In this document: positions 44,929-50,734 of the stretch, piece after piece
How positions within the stretch are numbered: position 1 is the stretch's first letter
How the letters are laid out: each line of letters starts with the position of its first letter
Made by a program: the position numbers and the translations under genes
Assembly: GCA_944385095.1 (NCBI GenBank)
Contig: CALWVS010000001.1
Location: 210,658-274,657, forward strand
DNA: 64,000 nt
Direction: 5' to 3'
DNA from: an uncultured Oscillospiraceae bacterium
Lineage (GTDB): Bacteria > Bacillota > Clostridia > Oscillospirales > Oscillospiraceae
The notes under the pieces: model-generated
The model's input: only the letters and a program-made list of their open reading frames with translations
Told to the model about the DNA's origin: nothing
Database searches by the model: none

Positions 44929-45996
44929 TTGAGTAGAAAAGCAATATCAGGTGTGGTTTTAGCCTTTGTGCTATCCATCTTCATGCAAGGTGGAGTTGGT
45001 GTACAGGCAGCAGCGGTTCAAGAGCCAGAGATTGCCTGTATCCAGACACAGGAGATGGAGGGAAAACAACTGATTCCATTGGGGAATGCAGTTGGAATTA
45101 AGTTGTTTTCCGATGGTGTGTTGGTGGTGGGATTGTCCTCCATTGATACAGTGACTGGTCCAGCCTCACCGGGAAAGACCAGCGGATTAAAGGTAGGGGA
45201 CTTGATTACCCATATCAATGAACAGGAAGTCAACACCATAGAACAGGTGCAGGACATTTTGAAACAGGAACAGGGAAACCCTCTGACTCTACAGGTAAAC
45301 CGCAAGGATAGTTCCTTGCAGCTTTCCGCTCAGGCACTGCAAAATAGTGCAGGTGATTACCAGTTGGGGGTATGGCTGCGAGATTCTATGGCTGGTATTG
45401 GTACCATGACATTCTATGACCCAGAAAGTGGTATGTTTGCAGCATTGGGGCATGGAATCAATGATGTGGACACAGCCATGAGAATGCCATTGGAATCGGG
45501 CAGTATTATGGAAGCCACGGTTTCGGAGGTCAAAAAAGGCACAGCAGGAGAACCGGGGGAATTGCATGGTGTGTTTGATTTGACAGAAGATATGGGAACC
45601 TTGTTTGCCAACACAGACCAGGGTATTTTTGGGCAAATTGAGCCAGAGAACATGATTGCACCCATGGAGCCAGTAGAAATTGCAGCTCCACAGGAAATAA
45701 AAAAAGGGAAAGCAACCATACGTTCTAATATTTCTGGTAACGAAGTGTTAGAATATGAGATAGAAATTCTTGATATTGACACAACTGAGAACACCAGAAA
45801 TATGATGATTCAAGTCACAGACCCAAGACTGCTGGAGGCGACGGGCGGCATTGTACAGGGTATGTCAGGCAGTCCCATTTTGCAGGACGGAAAGATTGTA
45901 GGAGCTGTGACCCATGTTCTGGTCAATGACCCCACAAGGGGCTATGGTATTTTCATTGAAAATATGCTGGAGGCAGTGGGGAACAGTGCACAATAA
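44929..45996 (+). CDS. spoIVB: SpoIVB serine peptidase
   Basis: The 355-residue product has a signal or anchor helix, a PDZ domain (about residues 55-125; SGLKVGDLITHINEQEV) and an S55 peptidase domain. The catalytic His lies in ALGHGIND and the Ser in VQGMSGSPILQ. In sporulation SpoIVB is made in the forespore and triggers pro-sigma-K processing. The TTG start at 44929 is preceded by a run of G residues. In most spore-formers spo0A follows directly; here it lies about 4 kb downstream. Confidence 0.93.
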   Translation: MSRKAISGVVLAFVLSIFMQGGVGVQAAAVQEPEIACIQTQEMEGKQLIPLGNAVGIKLFSDGVLVVGLSSIDTVTGPASPGKTSGLKVGDLITHINEQEVNTIEQVQDILKQEQGNPLTLQVNRKDSSLQLSAQALQNSAGDYQLGVWLRDSMAGIGTMTFYDPESGMFAALGHGINDVDTAMRMPLESGSIMEATVSEVKKGTAGEPGELHGVFDLTEDMGTLFANTDQGIFGQIEPENMIAPMEPVEIAAPQEIKKGKATIRSNISGNEVLEYEIEILDIDTTENTRNMMIQVTDPRLLEATGGIVQGMSGSPILQDGKIVGAVTHVLVNDPTRGYGIFIENMLEAVGNSAQ

Positions 45997-46035
45997 AGAG
46001 ACAGGGCAGCCAACGGGTTGCCCTGTCTCTTTATA
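45996..46035 (+). terminator. Intrinsic terminator of spoIVB
   Basis: AAAGAGACAGGGCA and its complement enclose a short loop and end in TTTAT. Transcription should not run on towards spo0A. Confidence 0.88.
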
Positions 46036-46126
46036 AAAAACGTTCTTGAAATAGATTCATAAATATGGTACAATCCGAAAAAATTCTGATTGATGGTTTT
46101 AGCTTCACAATAGGAGGAAAAAGGCG

Positions 46127-46327
46127 GTGTACCAATATAAAACAGAAATTTTAACAGTCAGTATGAAATGGTTCTCAGATAAAGCAGATGCAAATGATAT
46201 AGCAGCATTGGACCAACTTCTGAATGAGAGAGCGGCAGATGGATGGGAACTGGTGACATACGATTATATGGCAACCTCACTACAGGTGAAGGGTGCATTT
46301 GTGATTACATTTAGAAAGCCTAAGTAA
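46127..46327 (+). CDS. DUF4177-type small protein
   Basis: The 66-residue product (GTG start after AGGAGG) has the DUF4177 pattern: LNERAADGWELVTYDY followed by a beta-strand end. Function is unknown. It is the first gene in the interval between spoIVB and spo0A. Confidence 0.75.
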   Translation: MYQYKTEILTVSMKWFSDKADANDIAALDQLLNERAADGWELVTYDYMATSLQVKGAFVITFRKPK

Positions 46328-46369
46328 GAGACGATTTTACAAAATTGGAATATATAAAATTAGGTGTGT

Positions 46370-47413
46370 TTACCAGTTGGTAAACACGCCTAGTTTTTGC
46401 CCAATGAGTTCTTTTGCTTTCGTAAAACGCTCAAGGTAACTTCCACCAATGGAAGTGTATTCCACACCATAGTGGTGGAGCAGGTCCACGATTTGCTTGC
46501 TGTATTTTTCTCTGTTTTGGGCGATTTCTTCACTTCTGGTTCCGTCTTGTACAAACTCCACCGTTGGTTCCAAAAAGAGCACCAAATCCCAATGGGTAAT
46601 GATGTGGATTGCCTCTGCCAACGCCTGACAGTTGTTTTTTTCTTCCTGATTGTTCAATAGAAAATTGGCATAAAATAAGGTGGTTAATGCATCTGTATCC
46701 ACAAACAGCAGACGATTGCTCTCTTTCACTGCATCCATTACCTTTATTTTTTGTCTCAGCAGATTTTCATATAAATCCTCTGCCATCATCCACTCCTCTC
46801 CACCGGCGTAGGCACAGGTGCCTCTGCCCACTTCAGCCACAAAATTGGTATTGTAGGCAAGAGCCAGATTTTGCACCAAAGTGGATTTTCCTGTGGATTC
46901 ACTGCCTAAAATTAGAATTTTATTCACATAATAAGGTTTGCATGCCTGCGGAATGTAGTCCCAGTGGGACAGTGCCCACTTCCGAATTTCTGTGGAACTA
47001 ATGGGAACCTCCTTTCTGGGAAAGTAATGTACCACAGACTCAGGTGCATAAAGTTGCTCAAATCGGTTGGTGCCCAAATAATCATCTCCACAAAATACAA
47101 TATCAATGGGCTTTCCAATTTTGCGTTTGATGTCTCTGGCACCTTGTTCCCAATAGTAGTCTGTGTTGTATACCTCTTTGCTGATGGCAGTATCTTCCAC
47201 CAGAATGATTTTAATATTGGGAAGATGTTTGAGGCTGTTTAAAATCCATCGATACCTTAATTCCTTGCTGGTGGACTCTCTCCCTTCACACCAACTGATG
47301 ACAATATACAGCTCCTCACACATAGAGGCAGCTTTGATCATGTCGTGAAGGTGCCCCACATGGAGCGGGTCAAAGGAACCACCAAACATGCCTACTTTAT
47401 ATTGCACTGCCAT
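46370..47413 (-). CDS. nadR: NadR-like NMN adenylyltransferase / ribosylnicotinamide kinase, no HTH
   Basis: The 347-residue product joins a nucleotidyltransferase domain (GMFGGSFDPLHVGHLHDMI with the HxGH motif; residues about 1-165) to a P-loop kinase (LGSESTGKSTLVQNLA; about 165-347). It should phosphorylate nicotinamide riboside and adenylate the product to NAD. The N-terminal helix-turn-helix repressor domain of enterobacterial NadR is absent, so it is likely only enzymatic. It overlaps pnuC by 17 bases. Confidence 0.93.
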   Translation of the reverse strand: MAVQYKVGMFGGSFDPLHVGHLHDMIKAASMCEELYIVISWCEGRESTSKELRYRWILNSLKHLPNIKIILVEDTAISKEVYNTDYYWEQGARDIKRKIGKPIDIVFCGDDYLGTNRFEQLYAPESVVHYFPRKEVPISSTEIRKWALSHWDYIPQACKPYYVNKILILGSESTGKSTLVQNLALAYNTNFVAEVGRGTCAYAGGEEWMMAEDLYENLLRQKIKVMDAVKESNRLLFVDTDALTTLFYANFLLNNQEEKNNCQALAEAIHIITHWDLVLFLEPTVEFVQDGTRSEEIAQNREKYSKQIVDLLHHYGVEYTSIGGSYLERFTKAKELIGQKLGVFTNW

Positions 47414-48122
47414 TTCCTGCTTTCTGTTCTAATTTCTTTTCATTGTGCATTGCCTCGGTTTCCCATTTGATACACATGATAATGGCATTGCCAAGATAGA
47501 CAATCCACATGAGAAGGGTAGCAATGTTGTCATTCCCTGCCATGAAGTCACAACTCCAAAGATAAATGGTGAATATGTCAACACAAATCCAAATCCACCA
47601 CTGCTCCGCATACATGCCAATACTGACAATCATTGCAATGACAGAACAAGTGGTGGTGAATGAGTCTACATAGGGCATAGCACCACCCAACAGCTTTAAG
47701 ACCAGCCCATAGAGCAGAGTAAAAACAGCGATACAGAGGACATAACAGATGCGTTTTTTCTTTGTCATATGCCGTTTGTTGACTTCGGCTGTCTCCGCAT
47801 TCATATGTTTTTTCCACACACAAAACCCTACAATCTGCATGGGGGCATAGTACAGGGCATTTAACATGGTTTCTCCATAATATGCCGCTTGATAGGCAAT
47901 GATGGCATACAAAATGGAGTTGACCAGACCAAACAGATAGGCAGATAGCTTCCCTTTTCCTGTACAGATGACACAAATAACTCCACTTGTAGCAGAAATA
48001 ATACCCAAAATACTGTCTTGCCAGTAGATACTGAGTCCAATGATGACCGCACAGGCAAGAAAAATCCATGTAATTTCCCATAGTTTCCAGCCGGTGAGTT
48101 CCTGTTTTAGAATGGTTTTCAT
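47397..48122 (-). CDS. pnuC: Nicotinamide riboside transporter PnuC
   Basis: The 241-residue product has seven predicted membrane helices and the PnuC motifs WQDSILGIISATSGVICV and EQWWIWICVDIFTIYLW. It lets nicotinamide riboside enter by facilitated diffusion, trapped by the NadR kinase encoded next. The start is uncertain: an ATG at 48122 (MKTILKQELTGW) or a TTG at 48149. Confidence 0.93.
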   Translation of the reverse strand: MKTILKQELTGWKLWEITWIFLACAVIIGLSIYWQDSILGIISATSGVICVICTGKGKLSAYLFGLVNSILYAIIAYQAAYYGETMLNALYYAPMQIVGFCVWKKHMNAETAEVNKRHMTKKKRICYVLCIAVFTLLYGLVLKLLGGAMPYVDSFTTTCSVIAMIVSIGMYAEQWWIWICVDIFTIYLWSCDFMAGNDNIATLLMWIVYLGNAIIMCIKWETEAMHNEKKLEQKAGNGSAI

Positions 48123-48201
48123 TGTTTTCGAGTGCCTTATATTTTTCAATTAAAAGTAGACACCCTTTCTCTCCTTTCGTCTGTATTCCCTTTCCAACAG
48201 A

Positions 48202-48230
48202 ATTATAGTATAGGTAACCAAGAAAAACAA
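48202..48230 (-). promoter_or_regulatory. Promoter of pnuC-nadR
   Basis: On the minus strand TTGTTT is followed after 17 bases by TATAAT. The leader is about 75 bases and contains GAAAGGAGAGAAAGGG but no recognised riboswitch. Confidence 0.65.
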
Positions 48231-48265
48231 GATTGACAAGAAAACCCAATTTATAGCCAAATACG

Positions 48266-48316
48266 AAAAATCTCAGCAGAAGGTGGGGAACGAACCACCT
48301 TCTGTTGAGATTTTTT
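48266..48316 (-). terminator. Bidirectional terminator
   Basis: TCTCAGCAGAAGGTGG pairs with CCACCTTCTGTTGAGA except for a 2-base internal mismatch, flanked by A- and T-runs. It ends the XRE/membrane-protein operon on the minus strand. Confidence 0.9.
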
Positions 48317-48358
48317 ATTTTATGCGTCAAGAAAAATGTCAGGTACTATCATATTCCT

Positions 48359-48760
48359 TTAATATTTGCGTTTCAAAACCAAATAGCTGACCCAATACAA
48401 CAAAATCAAAAGGCAAACCCCACTGCTTGTGACCAGACTGAGTGTATTCTGACCCAAAATATGCAGTACAATGCAGGCAATGGCACAGATGAGCACAAAG
48501 AGATATCCAGCCCAAGCCCATGCCTTTGTGGCAAGGTAACGGTTGCGTTCATCTTTTGATTCTACTTCCATTTTTTTACGATATTCTGGATTGAGCATGT
48601 AACGCCCCCAGCGCATTATCTGTACAATACCCACTGCAATAAAAGCAATCCCTAAACTGTTCCAATATTCATCCAGTTTTGTGACAAAATACGCAATACA
48701 TAGACCAATACCCAAAAGAACCCAAAAAATGCTGAGAAAAATTCTGCGATTGTTTTTCAT
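48359..48760 (-). CDS. Four-helix membrane protein linked to an XRE regulator
   Basis: The 133-residue product has four predicted membrane helices arranged as two hairpins, with a polar cytoplasmic loop between (LNPEYRKKMEVESKDERNRY). Such proteins often follow a small XRE regulator in Firmicutes. Function is unknown. The 4-base overlap with the regulator gene shows they form one unit. Confidence 0.8.
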   Translation of the reverse strand: MKNNRRIFLSIFWVLLGIGLCIAYFVTKLDEYWNSLGIAFIAVGIVQIMRWGRYMLNPEYRKKMEVESKDERNRYLATKAWAWAGYLFVLICAIACIVLHILGQNTLSLVTSSGVCLLILLYWVSYLVLKRKY

Positions 48761-48960
48761 AGGGCTTCCTCCTCAAAAATAAAAATGTCCTCAATGGTCA
48801 TACCAAAATACACAGCAATGTTGTGGGCCAGAAAGATAGAGGGGTTATATCTGCCACGCTCTAAAGAACTGATGGTCTGTCTGGATACCCCAAGACTTTT
48901 TGCCAAATCTTCCTGTAGGATGCCCCGTTCTTTGCGGAGTTCTTCTATACGGTTTTTCAT
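48757..48960 (-). CDS. XRE-family transcriptional regulator
   Basis: The 67-residue product is a single helix-turn-helix domain (LAKSLGVSRQTISSLERGRY) ending FGMTIEDIFIFEEE, typical of small self-regulating Cro/CI-like proteins. The ATG at 48960 has AAGGAGGAAGAT upstream. Two similar 18-base operator-like sites flank its promoter, which suggests tight self-repression. Confidence 0.9.
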   Translation of the reverse strand: MKNRIEELRKERGILQEDLAKSLGVSRQTISSLERGRYNPSIFLAHNIAVYFGMTIEDIFIFEEEAL

Positions 48961-48975
48961 ATCTTCCTCCTTTGT

Positions 48976-49039
48976 TGTAAAGCTTGCTTTACATTTGTAT
49001 CGTAACATAGAGCTTCTTAAATGTCAAGTACACTTTACA
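48976..49039 (-). promoter_or_regulatory. Promoter with two flanking operator-like palindromes
   Basis: On the minus strand TTGACA (49027-49022) and TACGAT (49004-48999) are 17 bases apart. An 18-base inverted repeat, TGTAAAGCAAGCTTTACA, lies at 48976-48993 over the expected transcript start. A related copy, TGTAAAGTGTACTTGACA, lies at 49022-49039 and includes the whole -35 box. Bound repressor would block both. Confidence 0.75.
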
Positions 49040-49153
49040 TGAAAATGGGAATCTTTTTATCTTGGACGTGTAATGAATAGAAGGAACTAGAGCATATAGA
49101 AACCTGACAAAAGGTAAGAAATATCTTACCTTCCATATTTACAAATAAATACA

Positions 49154-49182
49154 TTGAAAAACATAGCATGTTATTATATAAT
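49154..49182 (+). promoter_or_regulatory. Promoter of the RelB-like gene
   Basis: TTGAAA and a perfect TATAAT are spaced by 17 bases, followed by AAAAAGGAGG before the start. Confidence 0.7.
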
Positions 49183-49210
49183 ATAGAATGTAAAAAAAGG
49201 AGGGCTTTCC

Positions 49211-49741
49211 ATGAGTTATACCATTACCATTGATGACAAGCTGGAACAAGATGCACAGTTGGTTTTGGATCGGATTGGCTTGGATATGGATGCACTCATT
49301 CGGATGACCCTGAAACGGGTGGTGTTGGATGAAGGAATTTCCTTCTTAGTGGGGGAACAGAAAAGCAAAAAAAAAGCGATGCCCTGTGAGATAGACCGGA
49401 TGACAAAAAACAAAGCCATTTCTCTTTTTGCAGCAAAGGGCATCAGTGTGGGAAAAAATGTGACCTTTGCCTCCAAAAATAAAATGGCATCCAATTATTG
49501 GGCAAACCCAATGTTTGAAGTTTTAACCATGGAATGGTGCTTGATTCTCAATGATTGGATTCATAGAACCCTGTTTCTGTTCCGAATTCCATTGGGGACA
49601 GTATTACCAACTCAGTTGGTGAAACGAAGGGACCAACAACAGCGAATTGATTTACAGATTTGCTACAGCGACCCTACCTTTACGGATAATCGGAGTAAAT
49701 TGAGCTTTGCCCCATTTTTGGTAGAGCAGGTATCTTATTGA
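49211..49741 (+). CDS. RelB/DinJ-like ribbon-helix-helix protein with extra C-terminal domain, no toxin
   Basis: The first 48 residues (TITIDDKLEQDAQLVLDRIG and then a helix ending in LKRVVLDEGISF) resemble the DNA-binding part of RelB/DinJ antitoxins. A further 128 residues follow, far longer than a normal antitoxin tail, with WANPMFEVLTMEWCLILNDW and no match I know. No RelE/YafQ-like toxin gene lies on either side. It may be a repurposed regulator or a fused single-gene system. Confidence 0.65.
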   Translation: MSYTITIDDKLEQDAQLVLDRIGLDMDALIRMTLKRVVLDEGISFLVGEQKSKKKAMPCEIDRMTKNKAISLFAAKGISVGKNVTFASKNKMASNYWANPMFEVLTMEWCLILNDWIHRTLFLFRIPLGTVLPTQLVKRRDQQQRIDLQICYSDPTFTDNRSKLSFAPFLVEQVSY

Positions 49742-49815
49742 CACATACCTTGTGGAGAGAATGTGTGTGATTAATTTTGCATAATTTCAGGTAAGAAATG
49801 CAATAAATTGAGTTG

Positions 49816-49824
49816 TTTGTCGAA
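49816..49824 (+). promoter_or_regulatory. Spo0A-binding site (0A box) upstream of spo0A
   Basis: TTTGTCGAA is an exact match to the 0A-box consensus, 134 bases before the spo0A start; a partial second copy (TAGTCGA) follows 4 bases later. It suggests autoregulation. I could not assign a convincing promoter around it. Confidence 0.65.
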
Positions 49825-49957
49825 TATAGTCGATATTTTCTTTACCATTTTATGCCAAACCATCTTGCGTATGCTGTCTGATTATGATACATTTAACTCA
49901 ACCAATCCAATTCCCATCGAAGTGGATGGAATTACAATGATAAAGGGAGATGTCAAA

Positions 49958-50734
49958 ATGGATTTCACTAAAAAAGTATTGGTGGCTGATGCCGGTGAGG
50001 AGTTTCGCAGCCACTTTATAGAAAGGCTGAATCAAGAAAATGATTTGGTGGTTGTAGGTGAGACAGGTGATGGGGAGGAACTTCTGGAGCTTGTGAAAAG
50101 TACAGAAGCAGATATCATTGTGATGGAAATGGTACTGTCCACAATAGATGGTGTGGAGGTTTTGGAGAAATTAGAGGAGATGAATCTTCCAACAAAACCA
50201 AAAATATTGGTTCTGTCCAGCTATGCCTGCGGGGCTATGGCAGAGTTGGCAGCCTCCAAAGGTGCCGATCACTATATGGCAAAACCCTGTCGCTTGGGAA
50301 CTGTGTGTGAACGGATTCGGCAGTTGACTTCTGTCTCTGGCAGTGTACCTGCTACCCAAAATCTGCCCAGCAGTCTGGAAAGTAAAGTGACAGCAATTAT
50401 ACATGAAGTGGGTGTGCCAGCTCACATCAAAGGGTATCAATACTTGAGAGAGGCAATTATGATTGCTGTGGCTGACATGGATGTCATCAACGCAGTGACA
50501 AAGGTACTGTATCCTGAAGTTGCAAAAAAGTTTAATACCACATCTTCCCGTGTGGAGAGAGCCATTCGACATGCCATTGAGGTTGCATGGGATCGAGGCG
50601 ATTTGGAGGTATTGCAGAAGTATTTTGGTTATACCGTTTCCAACATCAAAGGAAAACCCACCAACAGCGAGTTTATTGCAATGATTGCAGATCGGCTTCA
50701 TCTGCAACAGAGAGAAAGCAAAGAGTGGAAGTAA
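49958..50734 (+). CDS. spo0A: Sporulation master regulator Spo0A with altered phosphorylation site
   Basis: The 258-residue product has a receiver domain (1-125) and the Spo0A C-terminal DNA-binding domain (about 140-258), whose recognition region ([20 protein letters not shown]) is well conserved. In the receiver the usual acidic pair is D11-A12 rather than D-D, and the phosphoacceptor Asp is replaced by Glu57 in [14 protein letters not shown]; the common Pro after it is also lost. The conserved Lys (MAKPC) and Ser/Thr (LVLSSY) remain. It may not be switched by the normal phosphorelay and could be constitutively active or differently controlled. The ATG at 49958 follows AAAGGGAGA. Confidence 0.92.

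Follow-up and report, generated by a model that had tools for sequence, protein, structure and literature searches.

Spo0A with an acceptor site rebuilt apparently several times, which may act without a phosphate signal

Results

The spo0A Gene and Its Product

The window, namely the whole stretch of 64,000 nucleotides that was analyzed, carries a spo0A gene whose product combines a putative pseudo-receiver with a DNA-binding domain (Table 1). The protein matched the NCBIfam family TIGR02875 with 282 bits (cut-off 200) and Pfam Response_reg with 59.5 bits, and its TIGR02875 score, together with its receiver and Spo0A_C domains, identified it as a Spo0A. The phosphorylatable Asp and the two metal-binding acids, a requirement that we derived from textbooks and that lies outside the TIGR02875 cut-off, were not all found in it, given Glu57 and Ala12; two of the five catalytic residues, the second acid and the acceptor Asp, are missing. 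The receiver fold that a pseudo-receiver should have was recognized both from the Response_reg match and in an AlphaFold2 model built from 21 aligned sequences, with block mean pLDDT values of 84–98 across residues 11–120. The structures matched by sequence were 1fc3 and 1lq1 for the Spo0A DNA-binding domain, and 1dz3, 1qmp, 9phz and 9pi0 for receivers.

Table 1. Features of the spo0A locus (positions in the window).
Feature	Position	Strand	Basis
spoIVB	44929..45996	+	TIGR02860, 367.5 bits (cut-off 305.25); about 4 kb upstream of spo0A
0A boxes upstream of spo0A (candidate)	49818..49834	+	exact TGTCGAA at 49818-49824; AGTCGAT (5/7) ten bases on, at 49828-49834
spo0A, 258 aa, putative pseudo-receiver and Spo0A_C DNA-binding domain	49958..50734	+	translation, profile matches
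Receiver domain, residues 7-124	49976..50329	+	Pfam Response_reg, residues 7-120; predicted receiver fold
Codons of Asp11 (first acid, retained) and Ala12 (second acid, lost)	49988..49993	+	alignment
Codon GAA, Glu57, phosphoacceptor position	50126..50128	+	translation, alignment
Codon of Ser61, where Pro is usual	50138..50140	+	alignment
Codon of Ser87, conserved Ser/Thr, retained	50216..50218	+	alignment
Codon of Lys109, conserved Lys, retained	50282..50284	+	alignment
Spo0A_C DNA-binding domain, residues 144-247	50387..50698	+	Pfam Spo0A_C, 156 bits

The first-pass annotation of this locus had read Glu at the phosphoacceptor position, Ala as the second residue of the acidic pair, and a loss of the Pro that usually follows the acceptor. 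Alignment bore out all three, and translation the Glu codon as well, with B. subtilis Spo0A as the reference, in which Asp56 is the counterpart of Glu57, Asp11 that of Ala12 and Pro60 that of Ser61. The DNA-binding domain and the conserved Lys and Ser, described there as kept, are indeed present. A second, normal Spo0A had also been considered. With the TIGR02875 and Spo0A_C profiles, no second full-length Spo0A was found in the window's own genome (assembly completeness 98.9%): one of the 28 matches passed the TIGR02875 cut-off, and the Spo0A_C match was also single.

Among the other regulators of this genome, six that were examined by eye retain the two acids and the Asp; another (G000:C2:87626-87889; L152:1537-2223), which reads FVILSTVLYGLDG, apparently lacks the acceptor Asp. 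Three other genomes (G183, G190 and G192) each carry two full-length spo0A genes of equal score, and both copies in G192 are devoid of the second acid. Many short stand-alone Spo0A_C proteins (∼105–170 aa) were seen in relatives such as G017, G013 and G021, and none in the window's genome; five of those in G017 have an identical score and lie on two contigs, as if borne by a mobile element.

Neighborhood and Sporulation Genes

The interval between spoIVB and spo0A (45997-49957) holds nadR, pnuC, genes for an HTH regulator and for a small protein that matched nothing in Pfam, and a RelB-like ORF. Named genomes were scanned, giving 590 confirmed loci, of which the best 80 were taken. In a motif search among these 80, spoIVB was upstream of spo0A in 42 loci, 32 showed none over at least 2.5 kb, and 6 had too short a flank; in several relatives the end of spoIVB lies within a few hundred bases of spo0A. 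Homologs of spoIIAB, spoIIGA, sigE, spoIIE and spoIVB were found in the window's own genome, and spoIIAA was recognized by reading. The SigF-like gene scored 257 bits, below the cut-off of 321, and the SpoIIE and SpoIIGA matches likewise fell below their cut-offs. Among 40 genomes including this one, SpoIIE-like matches, some of them partial, were present in 37 (none over the cut-off) and SpoIIGA-like matches in 38 (one over the cut-off).

Distribution of Glu and Loss of the Second Acid

The Oscillospiraceae are an abundant family of gut bacteria. In 34 of the 36 other genomes of the same genus a full-length Spo0A could be read, which makes 35 proteins with that of the window. The acceptor residue is Glu in 24 of them and Asp in 11; the second position is occupied by Thr (25), Ala (7) or Met (3), the second acid being absent from all 35, and the first acid Asp11, the Ser and the Lys are retained in every one. 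Whether Glu57 is conserved in close relatives, as the first-pass annotation had asked, therefore has a divided answer, with Glu in 23 of the 34 other members and Asp in the rest. Asp at this codon in all close relatives, which would have spoken against the reading of Glu57, was not found, and the 23 come from separate assemblies.

The best 80 of the 590 named loci include Flavonifractor, Lawsonibacter, Oscillibacter, CCNA10 and other Oscillospiraceae. Of these 80, the 63 loci L059–L121 lack the second acid in 62 cases and have Asp in 50 and Glu in 13; all three acids are present in L126, Pro and Glu in L127, and the full acid triad in each of the remaining 15, mostly Clostridium with two Bacilli. 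As aligned, no member of the genus has the second acid, and hardly any of the sampled Oscillospiraceae do.

In a class-wide sample, a Spo0A_C match (E up to 1e-33) was present in 111 of 147 genomes. The table compiled from most of these matches and some order members (122 rows, the ‘ruler’ row included) showed the Asp-Asp-Asp triad in 89 rows, Asn in 3 and Glu in 6, with the second acid absent from all 6. When family f38 was sampled more widely, Glu was found in 4 of 30 rows, each of the 4 lacking the second acid, and the family holds three states: both acids; second acid lost with Asp kept; and second acid lost with Glu. Wider sampling of family f29 gave Glu in 6 of 33 receivers, of which four lack the second acid and two retain both acids; three f29 members combine Lys at the second acid with Glu at the acceptor.

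Across 295 Spo0A proteins, the second acid is absent in 43 of 47 with Glu (4 retain it) versus 102 of 242 with Asp (140 retain it). A strict dependence of Glu on second-acid loss was rejected on account of these four Glu rows. Of the 147 rows of this set without the second acid, 145 have Asp or Glu and two have Asn. Because of the four Glu exceptions and the two Asn rows, the rules linking Glu with the second acid are tendencies only.

Order and Rate of the Changes

With the three trait columns left out of its construction, a 118-row tree showed at least 12 changes at the acceptor (among Asp, Glu and a single Asn row) and 3 at the second acid. A 45-row tree, for which the rows were picked after the first tree had been seen, placed the genus and four close named relatives in one supported group (99/97). 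At least four Asp/Glu changes were counted on it, with three groups of Asp rows lying within the Glu rows; on the fewest-change reading, Glu was gained once and Asp returned three times, and within the genus these returns come without a return of the second acid. All Glu rows as a single clade were rejected on the same tree (p-AU 1.8e-5). The first-pass annotation had not captured that many genus members have Glu, that the change is reversible and tied to second-acid loss, and that it is present in other families as well.

On the 295-row tree Asp was replaced by Glu 11 times and Glu by Asp 6 times; of these 17 changes, 13 fell on the background that had lost the second acid versus 4 on the intact one (binomial p 0.003), the summed branch lengths being 54.6 and 78.7, respectively, with branches capped at 1. 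An earlier 244-row tree had given 12.8 versus 2.0 changes (p 0.0002), and the contrast is weaker in the larger sample; both p-values come from parsimony on single quick trees. Changes to other residues occurred three times on the intact background, once on a switching branch and never on the lost background of the 295-row tree, and 0.7 times on average on the lost background of the 244-row tree. An independent-pairs test of the link between Glu and the second acid was not significant (median p 0.5), with too few pairs. Judged from the trees, exchange between Asp and Glu is faster where the second acid is missing.

Constraint on the Receiver and Its Phosphodonor Contacts

Ten Glu-Glu pairs, some with a row in common and two, involving the window, saturated, gave a receiver dN/dS of 0–0.25. 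By these ratios the Glu-type receiver is under purifying selection, and a decaying copy beside a normal Spo0A, a case raised in the first-pass annotation, was rejected on these ratios and on the genus-wide occurrence of Glu. The DNA-binding domain evolves slower than the receiver in most of the ten pairs, and the mean identity of Spo0A_C is 83–89% within two Oscillospiraceae groups. By hand arithmetic, two of the eight non-synonymous single-base neighbors of an Asp codon are Glu codons. Since almost only a carboxylate appears on the lost background, its charge may have a structural role, perhaps in a pair with Lys109.

Seven phosphodonor-contact positions, named in the available text of PMC6136694, were mapped onto the receivers. 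In canonical Spo0A their conservation was 0.62 versus 0.52 for the rest of the receiver. The corresponding values were 0.37 versus 0.52 in Glu-type Oscillospiraceae, 0.30 versus 0.38 in Asp-type Oscillospiraceae, 0.32 versus 0.47 in f38 members without the second acid, and 0.16 versus 0.36 in the mixed family f29; in five f38 rows with both acids the donor contacts were also low (0.37 versus 0.59). Draws of matched positions as low as observed numbered, of 5000, 101 for Glu-type, 776 for Asp-type, 261 for f38 without the second acid and 2 for f29; in a helix-only control, with the first contact residue omitted, they numbered 390, 1922, 1 and 4 of 5000 in the same order. As a sign of lost kinase contact the relaxation is at most suggestive, and the donor contacts of Asp-type Oscillospiraceae without the second acid do not appear clearly relaxed.

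Kinases and Phosphatases

A search of the own genome for sporulation kinases, as the first-pass annotation had proposed, was performed by comparing kinase and regulator positions by eye and covered all but one (on C15) of the 26 ATPase matches. Only a hybrid kinase and a kinase-like protein without a clear phosphorylatable His were apparently unpaired with a regulator. No Spo0E-like phosphatase was found in any of the 40 genomes, with a positive B. subtilis control; this absence is order-wide and says little.

Outside the window, an orphan kinase-like protein of 353 aa (P0002; G000:C15:38755-39777, locus L157) is encoded beside the gene gap. It has strong matches in 31 of the 36 other same-genus genomes (30–43% identity). 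The G2 ATP-binding motif and the N-box Asn are kept, and the conserved His of the phosphorylation motif was not seen in 30 aligned sequences; P0002 is likely a pseudo-kinase conserved in the genus. As a partner of Spo0A it was rejected, since nothing ties it to Spo0A.

Candidate 0A Boxes

The exact 0A box TTGTCGAA occurs once in the window (49818-49824), with a chance mean of 1.33. The count being at chance level, the weight rests on the position and conservation of the box. When 350 bases upstream of spo0A were scanned, an exact box was found in 28 of 36 Glu-type regions (shuffle mean 1.5, largest 5 of 200 shuffles) and in 53 of 85 Asp-type regions (shuffle mean 3.3). A second box lay exactly ten bases away in 16 of the 28 Glu-type and 29 of the 53 Asp-type regions, and at twenty bases in 9 and 16; at spacings of 7–9 and 11–19 bases, 0–1 Glu-type and 0–5 Asp-type cases were counted. 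Tandem boxes one helical turn apart would fit the dimer binding expected from known Spo0A biology, and the boxes upstream of spo0A indirectly support candidate 0A-box binding by Glu-type Spo0A.

No exact box was found upstream of spoIIE, spoIIGA and spoIIA in the own genome; in relatives it was present in 0 of 10 spoIIGA stretches and 3 of 10 spoIIE stretches, counts that were made without a proven-sporulator control and to be read with the degeneracy of real 0A boxes in mind. Genome-wide, tandem boxes with up to 2 mismatches gave 13 matches versus 31 for the reversed pattern, that is, no excess. Two near-consensus tandem pairs lie on opposite strands within 70 bases (G000:C4:52440-52509), and a near-consensus triple box lies between a flavoprotein-like and an mnmE-like gene, both named by eye (G000:C2:172426-172452). 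A box between dnaA and dnaN of the own genome had hinted at control of replication; this was dropped, as no such box was found in any of the 21 other genus members read.

Discussion

In the textbook view, Spo0A requires a phosphate signal to act, and its phosphorylation is treated as the universal entry to endospore formation. According to the accessible part of a 2024 mBio article (PMC11210211), all endospore formers start via Spo0A, activated by phosphorylation of a conserved Asp, and the available text of a 2018 study (PMC6136694) describes Spo0A as remarkably conserved across pathway types. Natural Glu or second-acid loss in Spo0A is not reported in the accessible portions of either article or of PMC4395418, PMC7924749, PMC11536998, PMC4671073 and PMC12632262, and a Glu- or pseudo-receiver Spo0A in nature was not found in the literature searched, which mostly excluded subscription journals and preprints.

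With a slight lean in its favor, we read the Spo0A of the window as a pseudo-receiver transcription factor that would bind 0A boxes and act without His-to-Asp phosphorylation. Of the three options offered in the first-pass annotation (always on, controlled by other means, or accompanied by a second Spo0A), control by other means appears the best supported. The second acid contacts the metal directly, as stated in the available part of PMC12632262, and therefore phosphotransfer should suffer from its loss whether the acceptor is Asp or Glu, which would explain both the exchangeability of Asp and Glu and the returns to Asp without the second acid. Two supporting lines are weakened by the two Asn rows and by the low contact conservation in the f38 rows with both acids. 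Loss of the second acid would have come first; together with Lys109 and Ser87, the carboxylate that remained would hold the receiver in a dimerizing, DNA-binding-competent state; and control would have shifted from phosphorylation to the amount of Spo0A through its self-regulated promoter, perhaps with additional control by a novel ligand or partner of the receiver. More tentatively, and with slightly more doubt than belief, Spo0A may have been released from His-Asp phosphorylation independently in several Clostridia families, by a similar route in which the second acid goes first and Asp and Glu at the acceptor then interchange; entry into sporulation would there depend on how much of a constitutively competent Spo0A is present, or on a new receiver partner, instead of on a phosphorelay or an orphan kinase.

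A repurposed Spo0A would bind 0A boxes and regulate itself and other genes without directly triggering sporulation, which would be rare, lost or otherwise started. This would agree with the lack of exact boxes before the genome's own spoIIE, spoIIGA and spoIIA and the low counts in relatives (0/10 for spoIIGA, 3/10 for spoIIE), as well as with the near-consensus tandem boxes that in some cases adjoin genes without an obvious tie to sporulation. However, real 0A boxes can be degenerate, SpoIIE-like matches (some partial) and SpoIIGA-like matches are present in 37 and 38 of 40 genomes, Spo0A_C is 83–89% identical within Oscillospiraceae groups, and spoIVB is upstream in 42 of the best 80 of 590 loci, so that we consider repurposing unlikely. 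Spo0A could also still be phosphorylated otherwise: Asp11 may take the phosphate, a Hanks-type kinase may act on Ser/Thr, or Asp57 may be weakly phosphorylated in Asp-types, with Glu-types constitutive. The absence from both Asp and Glu types of the genus of the second acid, metal-binding according to the available text of PMC12632262, and some donor-contact relaxation in Glu species make this quite unlikely, and the lack of a Spo0E-like match in 40 genomes, weak since order-wide, points the same way; in its favor are the retention of Asp11, Ser87 and Lys109 in all 35 genus members, the Asp-type contacts that are not clearly relaxed, and the hybrid kinase without a neighboring regulator in the own genome.

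That the receiver is decaying or drifting, with the DNA-binding half alone mattering, is very improbable. Two of five catalytic residues are altered, the DNA-binding domain changes more slowly than the receiver, relatives often have stand-alone Spo0A_C proteins and Asn occurs in two rows without the second acid, all of which would suit decay; nevertheless, the receiver dN/dS is 0–0.25 in the ten Glu-Glu pairs, the receiver fold is predicted with high confidence, and Asp or Glu is kept in 145 of 147 rows without the second acid, although Glu codons make up just 2 of 8 neighbors of the Asp codon. A sequencing or assembly error at codon 57 has a negligible probability: no supporting evidence was found, and it is refuted by the separate assemblies of other genus members, of which 23 of 34 have Glu as well.

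If pseudo-receiver action holds and the Oscillospiraceae do dispense with Spo0A phosphorylation, searches for their sporulation kinases would be misdirected. A genus that toggles between Asp and Glu in one ortholog whose kind of DNA target is known would provide a natural test set for pseudo-receiver switching.

The window Spo0A resembles canonical Spo0A (B. subtilis, Clostridium; TIGR02875) in its domain order, DNA-binding domain, conserved Lys and Ser/Thr and 0A-box motif before the gene, and possibly in having spoIVB nearby. It differs in Glu for the phosphorylated Asp, Ala for the second acid and the lost Pro after the acceptor, and its donor-contact residues read GEFHERR, compared with NEFIDYD, NDFIEYD or NEFIEYD as the commonest canonical forms. 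In activating CheY-type mutants the same two positions are altered as here in nature; those, however, were made in the laboratory, and the window Spo0A has Ala, not Lys. The suggestion of the first-pass annotation that an Asp-to-Glu change mimics phosphorylation stands for some regulators and not for others: as described in the available text of PMC4671073, Asp-to-Glu activates some regulators and Lys at the second acid activates CheY, but both kinds of change failed to activate EpsW. On CheY, two of the cited papers do not agree. The accessible part of PMC4395418 refers to Spo0A just in connection with Asp-to-Glu mutants and in the title of a reference, and the available text of PMC12632262 does not mention it. 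According to the latter, the position that most often lacks an acidic residue in pseudo-receivers is that of the second acid (about 80%), and how bacterial pseudo-receivers are switched on and off is still a mystery. Like the pseudo- and aspartate-less receivers of these two sources, as far as their available text describes them, the window Spo0A is without residues that catalyze phosphotransfer; unlike known pseudo-receivers, it belongs to a single orthologous regulator in which this state switches back and forth within one genus and has arisen more than once.
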